Shown here: positions 1 to 28,760 of the stretch, piece by piece
How positions within the stretch are numbered: position 1 is the first letter of the stretch
How the letters are laid out: each line of letters begins with the position of its first letter
NCBI GenBank assembly: GCA_020847355.1
Contig: JADLCG010000149.1
Span: 1-35,814, forward strand
Direction of reading: 5' to 3'
From: Anaerolineales bacterium
GTDB taxonomy: Bacteria; Chloroflexota; Anaerolineae; Anaerolineales; Villigracilaceae
Length of the DNA: 35,814 bases
Notes under the pieces: model-generated
Told to the model about the DNA's origin: nothing
What the model saw: the letters and a program-made list of their open reading frames with translations, nothing else
Database searches by the model: none
Position numbers and translations under genes: made by a program

Positions 1-842
1 GGCGTGAAAGTCTCTGTGCCGATAGCGCTAGTTGCAGTTGCGGTACTTGTGACAATAGGCGTATCTGTAACGGTTGGCGCGCTCGTTGAGGTGGGCGTGT
101 TGGTGACGATGGGAATGCTCGTTGCAGTTGCCGTGCTTGTCGGCGGGTTGGTGGCGGTGGGCGTATTCGTCGCAGTCGGCGTTCGAGTCGGCGTGGAAGT
201 AGGCACGCCGTCAAATGAGTTGAGCAAAGGTTGCATCAAGCCGAGGGTTTGCCCATTTTTTGTAAAAGTAGTCACATTAGTCGTGGCGTTGAAGTTGACT
301 GCCCAGCCGGCAAATTTTGTCTCTGCCACTTTAGGACGCATGACGAAATGTAAATGCGGACCGGGAAATTTATTACCAGTACAAACGCGCGCGCGGACGT
401 TATCCGCAATGACGGCGAGTCTTTGATTCCGCGTGACCGTATCGCCAACGCTGACTTGAATATTAGCCAGATGCCAATATTCGGTTGTCCAGCCATTGCC
501 GTGATTAATCACAATATGACAACTGGAAACGGTTGTCACCGTGCCGTTCGCCGCCGCCGCGACCCAGAAATTAGATGTATCTTCGCCGATGACCATATTG
601 GTATGCGGAGCAAAATCAACTGCGCCGCCCATCAAATAATTGTGCGGGCTGGTGGGCGGGCGACGCGAGCCATTATCAAAGCCGCCGTAAGCCACCCAAG
701 CCAAACCTTGCTCCCAGGGGAGTTGGAACATATCCCCTGGCGGCGGGGCGGGCAAGTTGTTTCGCGCTTCTACCGTTTCCGGAAAAGCGGAAAGGAGCAT
801 GGCAAATAGAAGAAAAATCTGCAAGAGGTGTTTTATTTTCAT
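1..842 (-). CDS. Secreted M23-family (LytM-type) metallopeptidase with Pro/Thr-rich C-terminal region; 3' end runs off the window start
   Basis: Manual reverse translation from ATG at 842: MKIKHLLQIFLLFAMLLSAFPETVEA(signal)...HNYLMGGAVDFAPH...WVAAAANGTVTTVSSCHIVINHGNGWTTEYWHLANIQVSVGDTVTRNQRLAVIADN...GPHLHFVMRP..., then PTSTPTRTPTATNTPTATNPPTSTATAT. The HxxxxxxxVDF, HGNGW.TEYWHL and GPHLHF motifs are typical of M23. SD GGAG upstream (GAGGAGCAGAAGTTATG). Not in the supplied ORF track because it is edge-truncated. Confidence 0.88.
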   Translation of the reverse strand, partial: MKIKHLLQIFLLFAMLLSAFPETVEARNNLPAPPPGDMFQLPWEQGLAWVAYGGFDNGSRRPPTSPHNYLMGGAVDFAPHTNMVIGEDTSNFWVAAAANGTVTTVSSCHIVINHGNGWTTEYWHLANIQVSVGDTVTRNQRLAVIADNVRARVCTGNKFPGPHLHFVMRPKVAETKFAGWAVNFNATTNVTTFTKNGQTLGLMQPLLNSFDGVPTSTPTRTPTATNTPTATNPPTSTATATSIPIVTNTPTSTSAPTVTDTPIVTSTATATSAIGTETFT

Positions 843-882
843 AACTTCTGCTCCTCAACGAGCTGGCTTGATACGTTCATTT

Positions 883-1566
883 CTAGCGTTTTGGTTGATT
901 ATTCGCGCCGCGTAATTGGCGAAAGAGAATAAAAATGCCAACTACAAGGATAATTCCAAGAATACCGACCAAGCCGAGCGTCCCCTTTGGTAAAGAGGGG
1001 GAAGCCGGCGTAGCGGCGATTGTGTTTGGCGCAAGCGAAAGCGGCGCGCCGGATACAGCCGGCAATTCCTGAGCCGCGCCTTGCGCGCTATCAATAGTTA
1101 ATGAGACTTTATTTGAGCCAAGGCTAATGCCGCCTAACGGAGCGGCAAAACCCGCTTCGTTACGAATAGCCAGATCAGCTTTTTCTAGAGTTAGTTCAGT
1201 TTGACAGCCGCCCAATGTGGTGAAGCGCACTTCTGCGATTATGCCATTGACGGTTTGCGGCGCGGAACTGGCGAAAGATGCGTCAACCAATCCGCTGTTT
1301 TGCGGGAGGAATAACCCGTTCATTCCGGAAATTGGGCTGGTTGCCGTTACTGGCGTTACACACGCTGGATCATAGCGAATCTGAAAGTTGAAGCCTTGAA
1401 TTGGCGTGGCTGAAAGCGCATTGACATTGACGATAACGGTCTCGCCGGTTTTGAAGGCGGTGAGAGCGCCTGTCAGCCAAATGGTTTCTGGAGCTTGCGC
1501 GTTGACCTTAAATGCTGAAAAAATTGTGATGAAGATCGCAATTAGAGTGGCGGTGATGGATTTCAT
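883..1566 (-). CDS. Secreted cohesin-like domain protein with C-terminal transmembrane anchor
   Basis: Signal peptide, then cohesin-like sequence (FKTGETVIVNVNALSATPIQGFNFQIRYDPACVTPV...GIIAEVRFTTLGG...), low-complexity stalk and C-terminal TM helix GTLGLVGILGIILVVGIFILFRQLR plus basic tail. SD GGAG before ATG at 1566. Confidence 0.75.
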   Translation of the reverse strand: MKSITATLIAIFITIFSAFKVNAQAPETIWLTGALTAFKTGETVIVNVNALSATPIQGFNFQIRYDPACVTPVTATSPISGMNGLFLPQNSGLVDASFASSAPQTVNGIIAEVRFTTLGGCQTELTLEKADLAIRNEAGFAAPLGGISLGSNKVSLTIDSAQGAAQELPAVSGAPLSLAPNTIAATPASPSLPKGTLGLVGILGIILVVGIFILFRQLRGANNQPKR

Positions 1567-1578
1567 TGATTCTCCAGA

Positions 1579-1603
1579 GGAGGCGCGTAAACTACGCGCC
1601 TCC
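1579..1603. promoter_or_regulatory. Perfect intercistronic hairpin (11-bp stem, 3-nt loop) between the cohesin-dockerin gene and the anchored cohesin gene
   Basis: GGAGGCGCGTA (1579-1589) / AAC / TACGCGCCTCC (1593-1603); lies between the stop at 1618 and the SD/ATG at 1566. No U-tract on the minus strand. Confidence 0.7.
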
Positions 1604-1617
1604 CTTTGATTTCTATA

Positions 1618-3087
1618 TTATTGAACTGCCCAAGCCAAAGCGCCAGACTGACCGTAATTGCCAGCCAAAAGCTCAAGGTCAAGGATGTTGATCGTGCCGT
1701 CGTTATTCAAATCGGCGGCGGCGGGCGCGGCGAGGTTGTAGTTCATGCCAATGCTCATCGCGTCAAATTGATCAATCGTATTGTTGCCGTCAATATCGCC
1801 AGCCAACAAGATTACGGTTTGCATGGTCGTTGTGCTTCCGCCAACGATGGTGGGCGAGCCTTGCGCGCTGAGGTATCCTGCGGCGCTAGCGACAACGGTA
1901 TAGTTTCCGCCGAGCGCGGTTAAGTTGAATGTGCCGTCTGGGTTAACTACGGCTGAAGTGTTCAGCGTAGTATCTGGATTGTACAAGCTAACGGTGACGG
2001 GTTTGCTGGCTAGAACTTGTCCGTTTAAATTTCCTTGCGGCGTGGTGACTGTCAAGTTTGCGGTTGTAGAGGGGATCGAGAAGAGCGTATCGCTTCCGTC
2101 TGAGACGCGCACGACGCATTGAATATTTGCAGAACCGGCTTGCAATCCGAGAATATCAAATGTGAATGCGGTTCCCGGCGTTGTGGCTTTGTTCCCGTTG
2201 CTTCCGGCGATGGCGACGATGAATGTGCCGCCGGCAGGTCCGTTGACGACCATCACCGGGCTAGGACCAAAGACGCTACCAGCTACGAAATTGCTGATTT
2301 GAATTATCGTTGGATCGTAGGTACAAGTGAATTCTGCGCTGGTGTAACCGCTGGCAGGCGTATTGTTCAAGATTACGCTTCCAGTTGAAGTCCCATTGAC
2401 GTTGATGCTGACTGGGCTAGCTACAACCGAAACAAAAGGCGTGACGGGCGTGACGGTTGCTGTGACTGGGATGGTTGCGGTCGGCGTGAAAGTTGGGCCT
2501 GCGGTTGAAGTCACTACGCTGGTGGGCGTAGCGGTCGCTGGCGCTGGGGTGAAAGTAGGCGTGAGGCTGGGTCCTGCGGTGGAAGTGACGATGCTGGTGG
2601 GCGTAGCCGTTGCCGGGCTGGGCGTCGAAGTGAATGTCGGCGCAACTGAAGTGGAAGTGGCAGTTGGAACGATCGGCGTGGGCGTGGCGGTTGAACTGTT
2701 CGTTTGACGAATTGTCAGGTTGTAGGTGCCGCTTCCGGAGAATGGCTCAATTTGAACGTAGTATGTCCCGGCGGGTTGCGTGCTGGTGACTGCGCCATTT
2801 TGGGCGGTAATCTCATTACTGTTTTGGTCTAGCACTCTCACCACCGGAATCAAATCTCCGCTGGAAGGGATTGCCGTGATCGTGAAGGTATAAGTTTGCC
2901 CGAAAACAAATTGCCATTTTTCGAAGCGATTGCTATCTACATAGCCGGTATAGGTTGCGTCCCAATAGGTCAGCGTGCGGTCAATAATATCCGATGACGG
3001 CGCGGCTTTGGCTGGGCTGGCGGCGCTAAAACCGCTAACTAACAAAGCCATCAAAATTGAGAAGCGGAGCAAGGCATTGAGTTTCAT
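1618..3087 (-). CDS. Secreted multidomain protein: PPC-like domain, Pro/Thr linker, cohesin-like domain, carboxypeptidase-regulatory-like repeat, C-terminal type I dockerin
   Basis: Start moved to ATG 3087 (MKLNALLRFSILMALLVSGFSAASPAKA) with SD AAGGAGAA. Cohesin-like VVASPVSINVNGTSTGSVILNN...AEFTCTYDPTIIQISNFV. Two dockerin Ca-binding repeats: GDIDGNNTIDQFDAMSIGMNYN and ADLNNDGTINILDLELLAGNYG. Confidence 0.85.
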   Translation of the reverse strand: MKLNALLRFSILMALLVSGFSAASPAKAAPSSDIIDRTLTYWDATYTGYVDSNRFEKWQFVFGQTYTFTITAIPSSGDLIPVVRVLDQNSNEITAQNGAVTSTQPAGTYYVQIEPFSGSGTYNLTIRQTNSSTATPTPIVPTATSTSVAPTFTSTPSPATATPTSIVTSTAGPSLTPTFTPAPATATPTSVVTSTAGPTFTPTATIPVTATVTPVTPFVSVVASPVSINVNGTSTGSVILNNTPASGYTSAEFTCTYDPTIIQISNFVAGSVFGPSPVMVVNGPAGGTFIVAIAGSNGNKATTPGTAFTFDILGLQAGSANIQCVVRVSDGSDTLFSIPSTTANLTVTTPQGNLNGQVLASKPVTVSLYNPDTTLNTSAVVNPDGTFNLTALGGNYTVVASAAGYLSAQGSPTIVGGSTTTMQTVILLAGDIDGNNTIDQFDAMSIGMNYNLAAPAAADLNNDGTINILDLELLAGNYGQSGALAWAVQ

Positions 3088-3306: not shown

Positions 3307-3660
3307 CTAGTTTTTTACGCTTTCCGCAATCTTCAATAACCGCGCCACGCTGACCGGTTTAATTAACACGTGATCCGCTTTGCCGGTCACGGTTTTGGCT
3401 TTGATGAAATCGGCAGTGACGACGACCACCACCGTGTTTGGATAGCGTTTACGAATCACTTCTAGAATGTCCACGCCGGAGGCGAAAGGGAGGTGAATGT
3501 CTAGGATCACCAGCGTTGGCTCGGCTTTGTCTAGAAGCGCTGGGTATTTATCTCCATTGGCGTCAATGGCGGTTTCAAAATCCGCCTTTTCTAAAGTCGC
3601 TTGAAAAATTGCGCTAAGCTTGGGGTCGTCTTCGACGATGATGGCGTAAGGTTTTGGCAT
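3307..3660 (-). CDS. Receiver-only (CheY-like) response regulator
   Basis: 117 aa: IVEDD, phosphoacceptor LVILDIHLP, VVVTADF, LIKPV; no output domain. ATG 7 bp after the kinase stop. Confidence 0.9.
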   Translation of the reverse strand: MPKPYAIIVEDDPKLSAIFQATLEKADFETAIDANGDKYPALLDKAEPTLVILDIHLPFASGVDILEVIRKRYPNTVVVVVTADFIKAKTVTGKADHVLIKPVSVARLLKIAESVKN

Positions 3661-3667
3661 ATCTTAA

Positions 3668-6667
3668 TTATTCTCCGGGCGCGTTTTTGATGGGCAGACG
3701 AACGGTAAAACAACTGCCTTGCCCTAGAACGCTGTCTAAGGCGATTGAGCCGTCCATTAATTCGACGAGTTGTCTGGTGATCGTTAACCCCAAACCTGAT
3801 CCGCGATTTTCGCGGGTGATGGAATTGCTAACTTGCCGAAACGGCTCAAAAATGTGTTGACGATCTTCCTCGGCAATGCCTACGCCTGTGTCTTTAATTT
3901 CAATAGACCAATAAGCTGGTTCAGGGCGCTTGAGGTTAATTTCAATTCCGCCAACGCGCGTGAATTTTATGGCATTCCCCGCTAAATTGACGACGATCTG
4001 TTGAAGCCTTTTTTGATCGCCATACAGTTCAATCGGTAGTTCGTCTGAGATGCTGGAGCTAAAAGCGAGATTTTTTTTGCTTGCCAGCACCGCAAGCGTA
4101 GCTTGTATTTTATCAAGAAATTCTTTGGGCGAGAAATATTCGTCGTTCAAACTCATTGAATTGGCTTCGATCTGCGCCTCGTCCAAAAGGTCGTTGATGA
4201 TGTTGGTGAGATAATGCGTGCCTTCGATGATATTATTCACCGCTTTGCCTTGCTTCGCGTCTAAAGCCCCAAACGCTTCAATTTGAAGCAATTCGGCGTA
4301 GCCCAAAATTGTGCCCAGCGGCGTTCGTAATTCATGGCTCACTCTGGAAAGCAATTGGCTTTTTAATTGATTGGCGTTGATGGCTTGATCGCGCGAAAGC
4401 GCAATCGCTTCTTGCGCCTTTTTGATCTGCGTAATATCGCGCGCCACCGCCTGAAAACCGAGGATTTGATCGCCGTCTTTGATCAGTTGTACATTCTGCC
4501 CAATCCAGACTTCTTCGCCGGCGTATGTGTTGGCGGGGAATTCAAGATAGGTGATATCTTCTTTGCGGAGGAGTTGTTTTTCGTAGAATCTTTTGACGCG
4601 ATGCCGCCATTCCGGCACGATCACTTCGGTGAAATGTTTACCGAGCGCATCTTCTTCTTTTTCCGCTCCCATCAGGTATTGGGTGATCGGATTTACATAA
4701 ATGAAGAAGCCGTTATAGTCAGTGCGATAGATAATATCGTTGGCATTTTCAACGATCTGACGAAAACGATTTTCGCTCTCCTGAAGCGACTTTTGCGCCT
4801 GCAGAGATTGCTCGTGAGCGATTTCCAGATCGTGCGTGCGTTCTCCCACGCGCTGTTCCAGCAAATCGCGCTCTTGTTGCAATAAATTCAGCGCCTGAAC
4901 TTCTTTTTGCCAAGCTGTGTTGAGATTATCCAACAACAGAATCACGGAGGTTTGCAATGCGCCCGTACAGGTTAGAAAAACAATCGCGCTGGCTAACCCA
5001 GCTTGAATGGACAGCGGCGAAAGACTTTCGTTGGGCAAAATTTGCGGCGGGCGGAATAGCCCAGCGCCGATCAAAACGCCAAAGCTTGTAATCGTCAGCG
5101 TCCCAAGTATCAAGGCGTAGAGCGCTTCGCGCCAGCCGGTTAGGACTGCGGTGATAATTGCAAAACTCGCAAGGAAGATGAAACTTTCCGCTGAAAAGCC
5201 AAAGTTGAAAATTTCCACAAGCCCGAAGCTATAGATAATAGTCAGAAAGCCGAGGACGCGTACATTGTATTTGAGCGCGCGCTGAATGCCCAAAAACCAG
5301 AGCAAGAGACAAAAGAATCCGTAAGCAAAATTAACCGCCGTAATTTTTTCGCTTGGAATTAGAGAAAGCGCGTAGCCCAACGTGCCAACGCTGGCGGCGA
5401 TTCTAATAATATTGGTGAAAATTCTCTCCCGCGTTTTATGCCATGTCGGGTTGACATTTGGAGGGATGAATAAATCTTCGTTGACCGGGACAATGTAGAA
5501 ACTTTTCGAGCGCTCCCAGAATGAGCTTTTTTTCGTCTGCGCTACAGACGCGCTCTGGCTGGCTTCTGACATGCGAGGAATATTTACCTCGCTGATAGGA
5601 ACAGTCCTTTCCGAGGCGAATCTGGGTTGCGGAATCAAAGCCTGATCGAGCGCGCGAAGCATGATGACCCGCCCAACCGTTTTCTCATGCGCGTCAACGA
5701 GCGGATAAAAGTGAATGTGATATCTGCGAAGCGCATCCCCGGAGCCGACTGCGATCTCCTCGCTGGCTTCAATCACATTGCGGAAGCGTTCAATCAGATG
5801 GGGCCACGGGCTGAACAGCGCCGAGCCGTTTTTTCCGAGCGCATTGACAATTGGCACGCCGATCATTCGCGCGGCGGATAAGTTAATATCCACCACGTTG
5901 CCTTTTGTATCCAAAACGATCATGCCGTCTTGCAGGGCTTCGATGATCAAATCCCGCGCGATTGGAGCAATGTCTATAATGCGGAAGCCAAACATCGCCC
6001 AAGTGAAGGCGACGACAGTGATGGTCAGCGCAAAGGGCGTAATATCCAAATATGGGATTGGGCTATAACCGCTGAAATACAGAATGTTTCCGATCCACGG
6101 CGCGAGGACGGCGACGGTCATGGTGACGGCTTGACGCCGATACATGCCTTTTCTGCGAATGACGGCGCGAATTACCAAAACGGCGCTGACGAGTAAACTT
6201 AAATATGAATACGCAAAATGAACGAAGAACCAAGTTCCATGAGTCACTGCCAACGCTGAAAACGCATCCTCTTGCTGGATGTGGTATTCGCTCCAAATTA
6301 AGCCGTGATATTTTGTGGTTAAAGCGAGGAGCGCGGTAAGCGTTGGAATCACTGCAAGCAGAATCTTCCAGCGCTTAGAGATGGGCTGAGCTTGGGCGCT
6401 AAAATCTAAAGCGAAGATCAATCCGCCATAAGTTGAGAATGGGATGCCGATGTATTGAATTACGCCCCAAATATATTTGGTCTCTAACGTAGCTCCCACA
6501 ATTTCTAAAGCATAGCCGACCGACCAAATCAAAATAGAAAGCGACATGATGAAGAGCGCAAATGCGCCGCTTGCGGAACGGCGCGCCCAAGTGTAGCTTC
6601 CGGTGAATAATGCGATAATCGCCGTGACGATTAATGGCAGAATATATGGATTGTATTCAAAACTCAT
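3668..6667 (-). CDS. Sensor histidine kinase: 7TM N-terminal region, PAS, second multi-TM region, coiled coil, PAS, HisKA, HATPase
   Basis: 999 aa; hydrophobic N-terminal half with two separate multi-TM blocks; PAS (IVLDTKGNVVDINLSAARMIG; FRQIVENANDIIYRTDYNGFFIYVNP), HisKA SHELRTPLGTILGYAELL, HATPase NLAGNAIKF, DTGVGI, GSGLGLTITRQLV. Confidence 0.93.
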   Translation of the reverse strand: MSFEYNPYILPLIVTAIIALFTGSYTWARRSASGAFALFIMSLSILIWSVGYALEIVGATLETKYIWGVIQYIGIPFSTYGGLIFALDFSAQAQPISKRWKILLAVIPTLTALLALTTKYHGLIWSEYHIQQEDAFSALAVTHGTWFFVHFAYSYLSLLVSAVLVIRAVIRRKGMYRRQAVTMTVAVLAPWIGNILYFSGYSPIPYLDITPFALTITVVAFTWAMFGFRIIDIAPIARDLIIEALQDGMIVLDTKGNVVDINLSAARMIGVPIVNALGKNGSALFSPWPHLIERFRNVIEASEEIAVGSGDALRRYHIHFYPLVDAHEKTVGRVIMLRALDQALIPQPRFASERTVPISEVNIPRMSEASQSASVAQTKKSSFWERSKSFYIVPVNEDLFIPPNVNPTWHKTRERIFTNIIRIAASVGTLGYALSLIPSEKITAVNFAYGFFCLLLWFLGIQRALKYNVRVLGFLTIIYSFGLVEIFNFGFSAESFIFLASFAIITAVLTGWREALYALILGTLTITSFGVLIGAGLFRPPQILPNESLSPLSIQAGLASAIVFLTCTGALQTSVILLLDNLNTAWQKEVQALNLLQQERDLLEQRVGERTHDLEIAHEQSLQAQKSLQESENRFRQIVENANDIIYRTDYNGFFIYVNPITQYLMGAEKEEDALGKHFTEVIVPEWRHRVKRFYEKQLLRKEDITYLEFPANTYAGEEVWIGQNVQLIKDGDQILGFQAVARDITQIKKAQEAIALSRDQAINANQLKSQLLSRVSHELRTPLGTILGYAELLQIEAFGALDAKQGKAVNNIIEGTHYLTNIINDLLDEAQIEANSMSLNDEYFSPKEFLDKIQATLAVLASKKNLAFSSSISDELPIELYGDQKRLQQIVVNLAGNAIKFTRVGGIEINLKRPEPAYWSIEIKDTGVGIAEEDRQHIFEPFRQVSNSITRENRGSGLGLTITRQLVELMDGSIALDSVLGQGSCFTVRLPIKNAPGE

Positions 6668-27827: not shown

Positions 27828-28760
27828 TTAGGCTCTGGCTGTGAGGTGGATGCCGGCGAGCATACAGCGAACCGATCCGCCCGCCAACTCGATGGTGGGG
27901 ATGCTGACCGGCAGGATTTGCGCGCTACTTTCAATGACTTTGATTTGTTCCGCTTCCAAGGCGTTGAGTCCCCGCTGAGAGATGATCAGGAGGCGGTCTT
28001 TCGCGCCGGTGAGTTCGAGGGCGTTGCCGGAAAATTCTAGGATTTGGCTACGGCTGAGGTTGATGACTTGACGTCCGCTGTGCGTGAGGCGGGCTTGAAT
28101 TTCGTTTCTGCGCGCCGTGTTGGCGATTAAGTCCAAGCAAATCAGCGCGTATTCGGCGGCGACGCTCATCATTACATTGGTGTGATAGATGGCTTTGCCG
28201 CATTCGTCCATTGCGTCGAAAGCCATTGGTTCATAACCAAACGTGGTGCAGAATCTTTCCAGAATGATTGGGTCGGCGCGATTGGAGCGGCTGACGTATG
28301 CCAGGCGCTCAACATGATCAAAAACCATTGCGCCGGTGCCTTCCAGAAAGAGATCGTCATATTCCAGCCCGGAATAATCAATGACTTCTTGCACGCGGTA
28401 TTCTTTTTTTAGCATTTCAATAATGTCGGCGCGGCGTTCGTTGCGGCGATTGGGCGAATACATTGGGTAGAGCGCCACGCGTCCGCCGTGATGTGTCGAG
28501 AACCAATTATTTGGGAAAACCGAATCCGGCGTGTTCTTTTCGCCGAAATCGTCAAAGACGTGAACTTTGACGCCGTGCGCGGTTAGCTCTTCGACTACTC
28601 GATCAAATTCGTCTCGCGCTTGCTGGGCAATCGTTTCGGGAGGAAGTTCGGTTTTTGCAAGTTGAAAAGCGTTGTCCGCCGCTGTTTGCGGGTTGGATCG
28701 GAATTGATGCGGGCGAATCATCACGACTGAAGCCGGGGATTGCACGTGCTGATAATTCAT
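27828..28760 (-). CDS. ctlX: Amidinotransferase-fold hydrolase, CtlX-like (guanidino-group modifying superfamily)
   Basis: VVMIRPHQFRSNPQTAADNAFQ, VFPNNWFSTHHGGRVALYPMYSPNRRNERR, LFLEGTGAMVFDH, YHTNVMMSV, C-terminal catalytic-type Cys GGSVRCMLAGIHL. Confidence 0.85.
   Translation of the reverse strand: MNYQHVQSPASVVMIRPHQFRSNPQTAADNAFQLAKTELPPETIAQQARDEFDRVVEELTAHGVKVHVFDDFGEKNTPDSVFPNNWFSTHHGGRVALYPMYSPNRRNERRADIIEMLKKEYRVQEVIDYSGLEYDDLFLEGTGAMVFDHVERLAYVSRSNRADPIILERFCTTFGYEPMAFDAMDECGKAIYHTNVMMSVAAEYALICLDLIANTARRNEIQARLTHSGRQVINLSRSQILEFSGNALELTGAKDRLLIISQRGLNALEAEQIKVIESSAQILPVSIPTIELAGGSVRCMLAGIHLTARA

Follow-up and report, generated by a model that had tools for sequence, protein, structure and literature searches.

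Most of what is known of cohesin-dockerin pairs comes from cellulosomes, and the occurrence of both modules in a genome in which no dockerin carries a cellulase raises the question of what they assemble in such a setting. The question is posed here by a 35,814-nucleotide stretch of DNA from an Anaerolineales bacterium of the Villigracilaceae (GenBank assembly GCA_020847355.1, contig JADLCG010000149.1), hereafter the window, which is a whole contig (G000:C149) of a genome of 2.74 Mb in 358 contigs, 91% complete. At its left end lie three consecutive minus-strand open reading frames (ORFs), each with a Sec-type signal peptide, as an earlier note made from the DNA sequence had described; that note had also supposed a non-cellulosomal context, rightly so. 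The three genes, DocCoh, CohTM and M23CohDoc (Table 1), are a conserved set in uncultured Anaerolineales, and it is rather probable that they constitute a surface-display system in which a membrane-anchored, non-cellulosomal cohesin (CohTM) displays an M23 peptidase tethered through an X-module-dockerin dyad (XDoc), with DocCoh as adaptor or extender.

Module architecture of the three proteins

DocCoh, which starts at the ATG at position 3087, contains no recognised enzyme domain, and its N-terminal region appears PPC-like by comparison with a relative's copy. The cohesin-like domain and canonical two-repeat dockerin that had been attributed to it are both supported by the repeats themselves, by Pfam, by the AlphaFold2 fold and by the relatives' copies. 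The dockerin has two F-hand calcium repeats (DIDGNNTIDQFD at residue 431 and DLNNDGTINILD at residue 459) with D/N ligands at positions 1, 3, 5 and 12, as in PF00404; in a 61-sequence alignment these ligands are invariant or nearly so and the A-D-L, Y, G and W positions are kept. Of the modules in the secreted proteins, the dockerin is the best conserved. An Ig-like CarboxypepD_reg module (29 bits in Pfam) abuts it N-terminally, as in an X-dockerin, and the profile of this pair matches the XDoc structures 3kcp, 4wi0, 4u3s and 2b59.

The Pfam scores of DocCoh are otherwise modest: Dockerin_1 reaches 22.5 bits with the protein as query (cut-off 22.9) and 27.3 bits when the genome was searched, which exceeds the cut-off, while Cohesin, at 17 bits in the protein search, is sub-threshold in this copy and passes in orthologues. 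The AlphaFold2 model of the Coh-X-Doc trimodule has a pLDDT of 97.4, and Foldseek ranks the Coh-X-Doc of CipA (3KCP, 4FL4) first, in agreement with the profile search of the trimodule. Isolated cohesin structures align to the model at 2-3 Å, as do the single modules of 3KCP; the whole-chain TM-score against 3KCP is only 0.45 because the domain orientations differ. With relatives above the cut-offs, confident models and cohesin or CipA folds at the head of the PDB matches, the weak Pfam scores are not chance.

CohTM is, as had been claimed, a single cohesin on a C-terminal transmembrane anchor. Cohesin (PF00963) scores 29.1 bits in the protein search against a cut-off of 24.1, the AlphaFold2 model (pLDDT 89.8) shows the nine-stranded jelly-roll of a cohesin, and nearly all of its top 50 PDB matches in Foldseek are cohesins, so that a check proposed for this gene (883-1566) was passed in both profile and fold. 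The type II anchoring cohesins 5g5d and 3l8q give the best profile matches; the fold-search ranks are mixed. CohTM cohesins from different loci share a mean identity of 70%, and the protein ends with one hydrophobic helix at about residues 191-220 and a basic tail. Sortase anchoring was considered and rejected, as conservation is lacking for the LPxGT-like string that precedes the helix and no CTERM sorting model passes.

The third gene, running from 842, is cut at window position 1 by the contig end, a truncation that the earlier note overlooked. Its M23 hydrolase (Peptidase_M23, 48.8 bits) and its place in the tandem were recognised correctly; what had been described as a Pro/Thr tail is in fact a linker, nor is the enzyme a bystander, carrying its own cohesin and dockerin wherever the relatives' gene is complete. 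In congeners the protein has 674-982 residues, with cohesin, CarboxypepD_reg-like and dockerin modules past the Pro/Thr linker; that of the closest relative (G012) has 674 residues, ends in YGQSGALAW and, in the 280 residues common to both, shares 77% identity with the window's product. Because the relatives' gene continues through the linker, the window's peptidase is read as bearing its own dockerin plug, and cohesin, X-like and dockerin modules are predicted beyond the contig end. A search of the rest of the genome gave no second dockerin, even at an E value of 10, which is consistent with an assembly gap.

Among solved structures the peptidase domain is closest to LasA (8e-20), pseudoalterin (1e-16) and beta-lytic protease (2e-14). 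It has the H(x)nD and HxH motifs and the third catalytic histidine that define M23A (PMC9662197), as H67-x8-D76, H163-L-H165 and H124, and the zinc ligands H, D and H with the HxH motif are conserved in nearly all of 41 M23 sequences. The spacing is 8 rather than the 12 of the LasA H(x)12D (PMC9662197), and the domain is therefore called LasA-like and not filed as a certain member of M23A.

Conservation, loss and variation of the gene set

The order DocCoh-CohTM-M23CohDoc, on one strand and closely spaced, is found at 30 of the 31 GenBank loci whose contigs include both flanks, in agreement with the synteny expected by the earlier note; the sole exception (L128) is an artefact of the ORF picker, and the + frame is open there. 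Gaps at loci with the full unit are mostly short (about 20-120 bp, or a slight overlap). Every named record that has the full unit is a metagenome-assembled genome of Anaerolineales or other Chloroflexota, one of them labelled Candidatus Villigracilaceae, from groundwater, sludge, anammox reactors, lakes and hot springs according to the record titles.

CohTM is present in 36 of 400 Anaerolineales genomes, all in the window's own family and in five genera of 130. Among 37 congeners, 22 have both CohTM and the Coh-X-Doc cassette, 13 have neither and one has each alone (Fisher p 5e-8, kinship uncorrected); two genomes (G031, G074) keep all three genes with CohTM elsewhere in the genome. In typical congeners the dockerins number exactly two and the cohesins three, and the three cassette genes account for all of them. 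About a third of the well-assembled congeners lack the set with the flanking genes intact, the series SBP5 - M20 - DUF1385 - (NAGPA) - PDDEXK - NYN - ABC-F being unbroken with no set genes between, and from these clean empty sites the set is concluded to be a discrete, dispensable module. Cassette-less congeners retain the flanking genes for an oligopeptide-binding protein and an M20 dipeptidase, which weakens the case for a functional link between these and the set. At L226/L053 (G033) CohTM is intact, DocCoh is in fragments with stops and the M23 gene is missing, an apparent decay of the set.

Some anchors extend into the cytoplasm. In 11 of 36, about 100 residues follow the helix, and all eleven forms examined are clear FHA domains in Pfam, requiring about four changes on the CohTM tree; the domain is absent from the window's copy and from most congeners. 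FHA-bearing anchors lie at L102:7896-8870, L132:4111-5079, L136, L141:5598-6581, L144 and L149:9007-10008, and further ones at L150, L164, L165, L169, L170 and L228:8464-9465. A cytoplasmic FHA domain suggests, from sequence, a link to phospho-signalling, and no paper joining cohesin, dockerin and FHA domain was found in the open-access literature searched. It is conceivable, if unlikely, that the FHA form acts as a transmembrane reporter or controller, coupling a wall peptidase docked on its outer cohesin to Ser/Thr phospho-signalling in the cytoplasm; were this true, a cohesin-dockerin plug would belong to a switch for signalling or wall homeostasis. The window's subclade, without FHA, has a histidine kinase and receiver just upstream of the cassette.

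Two further kinds of variation concern the Coh-X-Doc proteins. In G005 and G031 an extra protein has the same Coh-X-Doc tail on a beta-helix and a glycosidase-like Spherulin4 domain, encoded far from the cassette (L097:6730-9714 and L107:6782-9736). The absence of glycoside hydrolases remarked on in the earlier note is thus not without exception in the lineage; in the window's own genome no dockerin carries a cellulase. In other genera the M23 protein has an insert between its cohesin and X-dockerin, either GSDH (glucose/sorbosone dehydrogenase-like) or N_BRCA1_IG-like (L227:3124-6207, L168:9713-12619, L165:10190-12727).

Putative docking partners, proposed display and its alternatives

Within a locus the dockerins of DocCoh and the M23 protein are 77% identical, compared with 52% for the neighbouring cohesins, and no type-specific positions were found between the two dockerins. 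Near-copy dockerins beside differing cohesins, with no type-specific site, suggest a shared partner, and sequence comparison makes it probable that the two have one. CohTM is similar to the type II anchoring cohesins, and the plug to the X-dockerin bound by such cohesins, so that docking of both proteins on CohTM is the simplest reading. CohTM would then be secreted and its C-terminal helix would retain it in the cytoplasmic membrane, with one type II-like cohesin facing outward, into which the terminal dyad of X-like module and dockerin, the same in DocCoh and the M23 peptidase, would plug in a calcium-dependent manner. Since both secreted proteins also bear a cohesin of their own, DocCoh is a possible adaptor or extender, and CohTM - DocCoh - M23 or longer head-to-tail chains might form through the DocCoh cohesin (CohA). 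The suggestion that this cohesin recruits further dockerin proteins finds no support in the window's own genome, where one dockerin is assembled and the predicted second is lost at the contig end. The LasA-type metallopeptidase would stand at the cell surface on a long, flexible Pro/Thr tether, where it would most likely cleave, for scavenging, the peptide bridges of peptidoglycan or Gly-rich proteins of cells that are dead or close by; the cell's own wall is a less likely target.

Several observations weigh against this proposal. The assembly does not contain the dockerin predicted for the window's M23 gene, and the auxiliary, third catalytic H124 is replaced by F in 9 of 41 homologues. Partial correlations from mirror-tree analysis are positive for all pairs and pick no single cohesin as the partner. 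The distances of the DocCoh dockerin correlate with those of its own cohesin at 0.43 and with CohTM at 0.41. Finally, the genome encodes several penicillin-binding protein (PBP) transpeptidase domains, i.e. host peptidoglycan synthases, and self and foreign peptidoglycan are therefore both possible substrates.

The last point leads to the best of the alternatives, in which the tethering is the same and the M23 enzyme acts on the host's own wall, as a controlled autolysin active in septum splitting or the growth of filaments, with the FHA anchor placing it under Ser/Thr phosphorylation control. Tethering near the wall, vertical and family-restricted occurrence and the cytoplasmic FHA on 11 of 36 anchors agree with such a role as the PBP domains do; however, the set is dispensable, FHA is missing from the window's copy and most congeners, and enzymes of the LasA/beta-lytic M23 type are known as secreted bacteriolytic enzymes (PMC9662197, PMC9783410), so that the role is a tentative possibility on which we would not rely. 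A little more doubtful still is a self-assembling fibre for adhesion or floc structure, in which each dockerin binds the cohesin of the next copy, head to tail, and CohTM serves as the base only. In its favour, a cohesin and a dockerin occur once each in every non-anchor protein, typical genomes contain no dockerin besides these, DocCoh lacks a recognised enzyme, and its dockerin tracks its own cohesin as well as it does CohTM. The Coh-X-Doc of CipA, in contrast, does not polymerise with itself because its two modules are of different types, CohA and CohTM are of different subtypes, and a conserved peptidase with an intact active site implies catalysis. That the modules are relics without docking, on ordinary secreted and membrane proteins with degenerate Ig-like and EF-like domains, would accord with the weak Pfam scores of the DocCoh cohesin and dockerin and is very improbable in view of the near-invariant calcium ligands of the most conserved module and the mean identity of the CohTM cohesins. 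A small cellulosome-like polysaccharide system with its main enzymes elsewhere, to which the Spherulin4 proteins and GSDH inserts might point, is scarcely credible when the own genome has no other dockerin at E 10, typical congeners have exactly two, and no carbohydrate-binding module (CBM) or cellulase is attached.

If the pairing in the display proposal is true, the set would be among the smallest natural surface scaffolds and a new pair for protein engineering, and would provide a concrete mechanism for a possible lysis or scavenging of other bacteria by filamentous Anaerolineales, which are abundant in sludge and groundwater. It is in any case a compact, precisely conserved three-gene system of one bacterial family, with a LasA-like wall peptidase and an anchor that may talk to the cytoplasm via FHA.

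Comparison with known systems and features of the window

The closest structural parallel is the CipA Coh-X-DocII of Clostridium thermocellum with its surface-anchored type II cohesin (3KCP, 4FL4, 2B59), which shares the Coh-X-Doc order and an anchored cohesin, type II-like by profile, as the putative socket. Unlike the CipA system, the cassette lacks a CBM, a type I cohesin array and cellulases, has the trimodule directly attached to an M23 peptidase, and uses a transmembrane helix as anchor instead of SLH (S-layer homology) repeats. The cassette was rejected as a cellulosome, there being one assembled dockerin in the genome and mostly two in congeners, both in the cassette. In logic it resembles the hypothetical planctosome of freshwater Planctomycetes, with its non-cellulosomal anchor, cohesin/dockerin adaptor and dockerin peptidase (PMC6461901). 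The parts of the latter are a 2,210-residue Lamin-tail anchor, a hyaline-repeat adaptor and M12B and M14 peptidases (PMC6461901), and the cassette, an operon-like set of three genes with a transmembrane anchor, an X-like module and M23, does not belong to it. The M23A enzymes LasA, pseudoalterin and beta-lytic protease (3IT5, 6IK4, 8AF1) share with the cassette peptidase the PPxxxxQLPWxQG start, the HxH motif and the zinc ligands; they are secreted free, whereas the cassette enzyme lacks a recognisable pro-domain, has H(x)8D in place of H(x)12D and is predicted to be tethered by linker and dockerin.

Recruitment of a wall-lytic activity by a dockerin is also described for cell-wall hydrolases of Ruminococcus champanellensis (cited in PMC6403190), which belong to a large cellulosome and for which lysozyme activity rather than M23 is reported. 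The best fold matches of CohTM, the non-cellulosomal cohesin-like modules of Clostridium perfringens (2JH2, 2VO8, 2W1N), belong to secreted glycoside hydrolases and not to a membrane anchor. By title and abstract, the cohesin-dockerin literature found for Chloroflexi is mostly on plant biomass or community metagenomics. The individual parts of the cassette are known and their combination was not found in the open-access literature searched, where the planctosome is a proposed precedent of the same logic with different parts (PMC6461901) for what the earlier note took as a candidate undescribed system.

Table 1. Coordinates of the cassette genes and their modules in the window.
Feature	Position	Strand	Remarks
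DocCoh gene, 489 aa	1618..3087	-	signal peptide, PPC-like N-terminal region, Pro/Thr linker, cohesin, X-like (CarboxypepD_reg), dockerin
Pro/Thr-rich linker of DocCoh	2473..2697	-	direct sequence reading
Cohesin module of DocCoh (CohA)	2047..2403	-	19.9 bits, below cut-off; fold by model
CarboxypepD_reg/X-like Ig-fold module	1813..2043	-	directly before dockerin; E 1.4e-6
Dockerin	1666..1803	-	two Ca-binding repeats, then conserved G-x3-W tail
GC-rich hairpin, 11 pairs	1579..1603	.	between DocCoh and CohTM; adjoins CohTM ribosome-binding region, upstream side
CohTM gene, 227 aa	883..1566	-	signal peptide, cohesin, C-terminal transmembrane anchor, short basic tail
Cohesin of CohTM	1189..1464	-	30.1 bits, over cut-off; fold by model
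C-terminal transmembrane helix and basic stop-transfer tail	907..996	-	hydropathy; modelled helix residues 172-198
M23CohDoc gene, 5' 280 codons only	1..842	-	signal peptide, LasA-like M23 domain, Pro/Thr linker; truncated by contig end
LasA-like M23 peptidase region	333..743	-	H67-x8-D76, H124, H163-L-H165
Pro/Thr linker of M23 gene	3..206	-	cut by contig end

The intergenic hairpin has a T tail on the + strand only and is suggestive, at most, of a processing or attenuation element, such sites totalling at chance level; a promoter scan also gave a result at chance level. Directly upstream of the cassette, window positions 3307-6667 encode a 999-residue histidine kinase with 7TM, MASE11 and PAS regions and a stand-alone receiver. 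Most congeners have a NAGPA gene at this place, and among the loci compared only G026 and G012 share the kinase and receiver. Further along, positions 27828-28760, next to an MFS transporter, give a strong match (329 bits) to PF19420, the family of eukaryotic-type dimethylarginine dimethylhydrolases.

Five congeners without the set (G035, G006, G022, G008 and G019) carry another one, consisting of an X-dockerin protein, a LysM-bearing cohesin scaffold and a single cohesin (L103:8376-11619, L104, L105 and L106 in the first four). The scaffold has one or two cohesins with two LysM, the single cohesin is a small secreted protein, and the dockerin protein of G008 has a reprolysin-like region and leucine-rich repeats.

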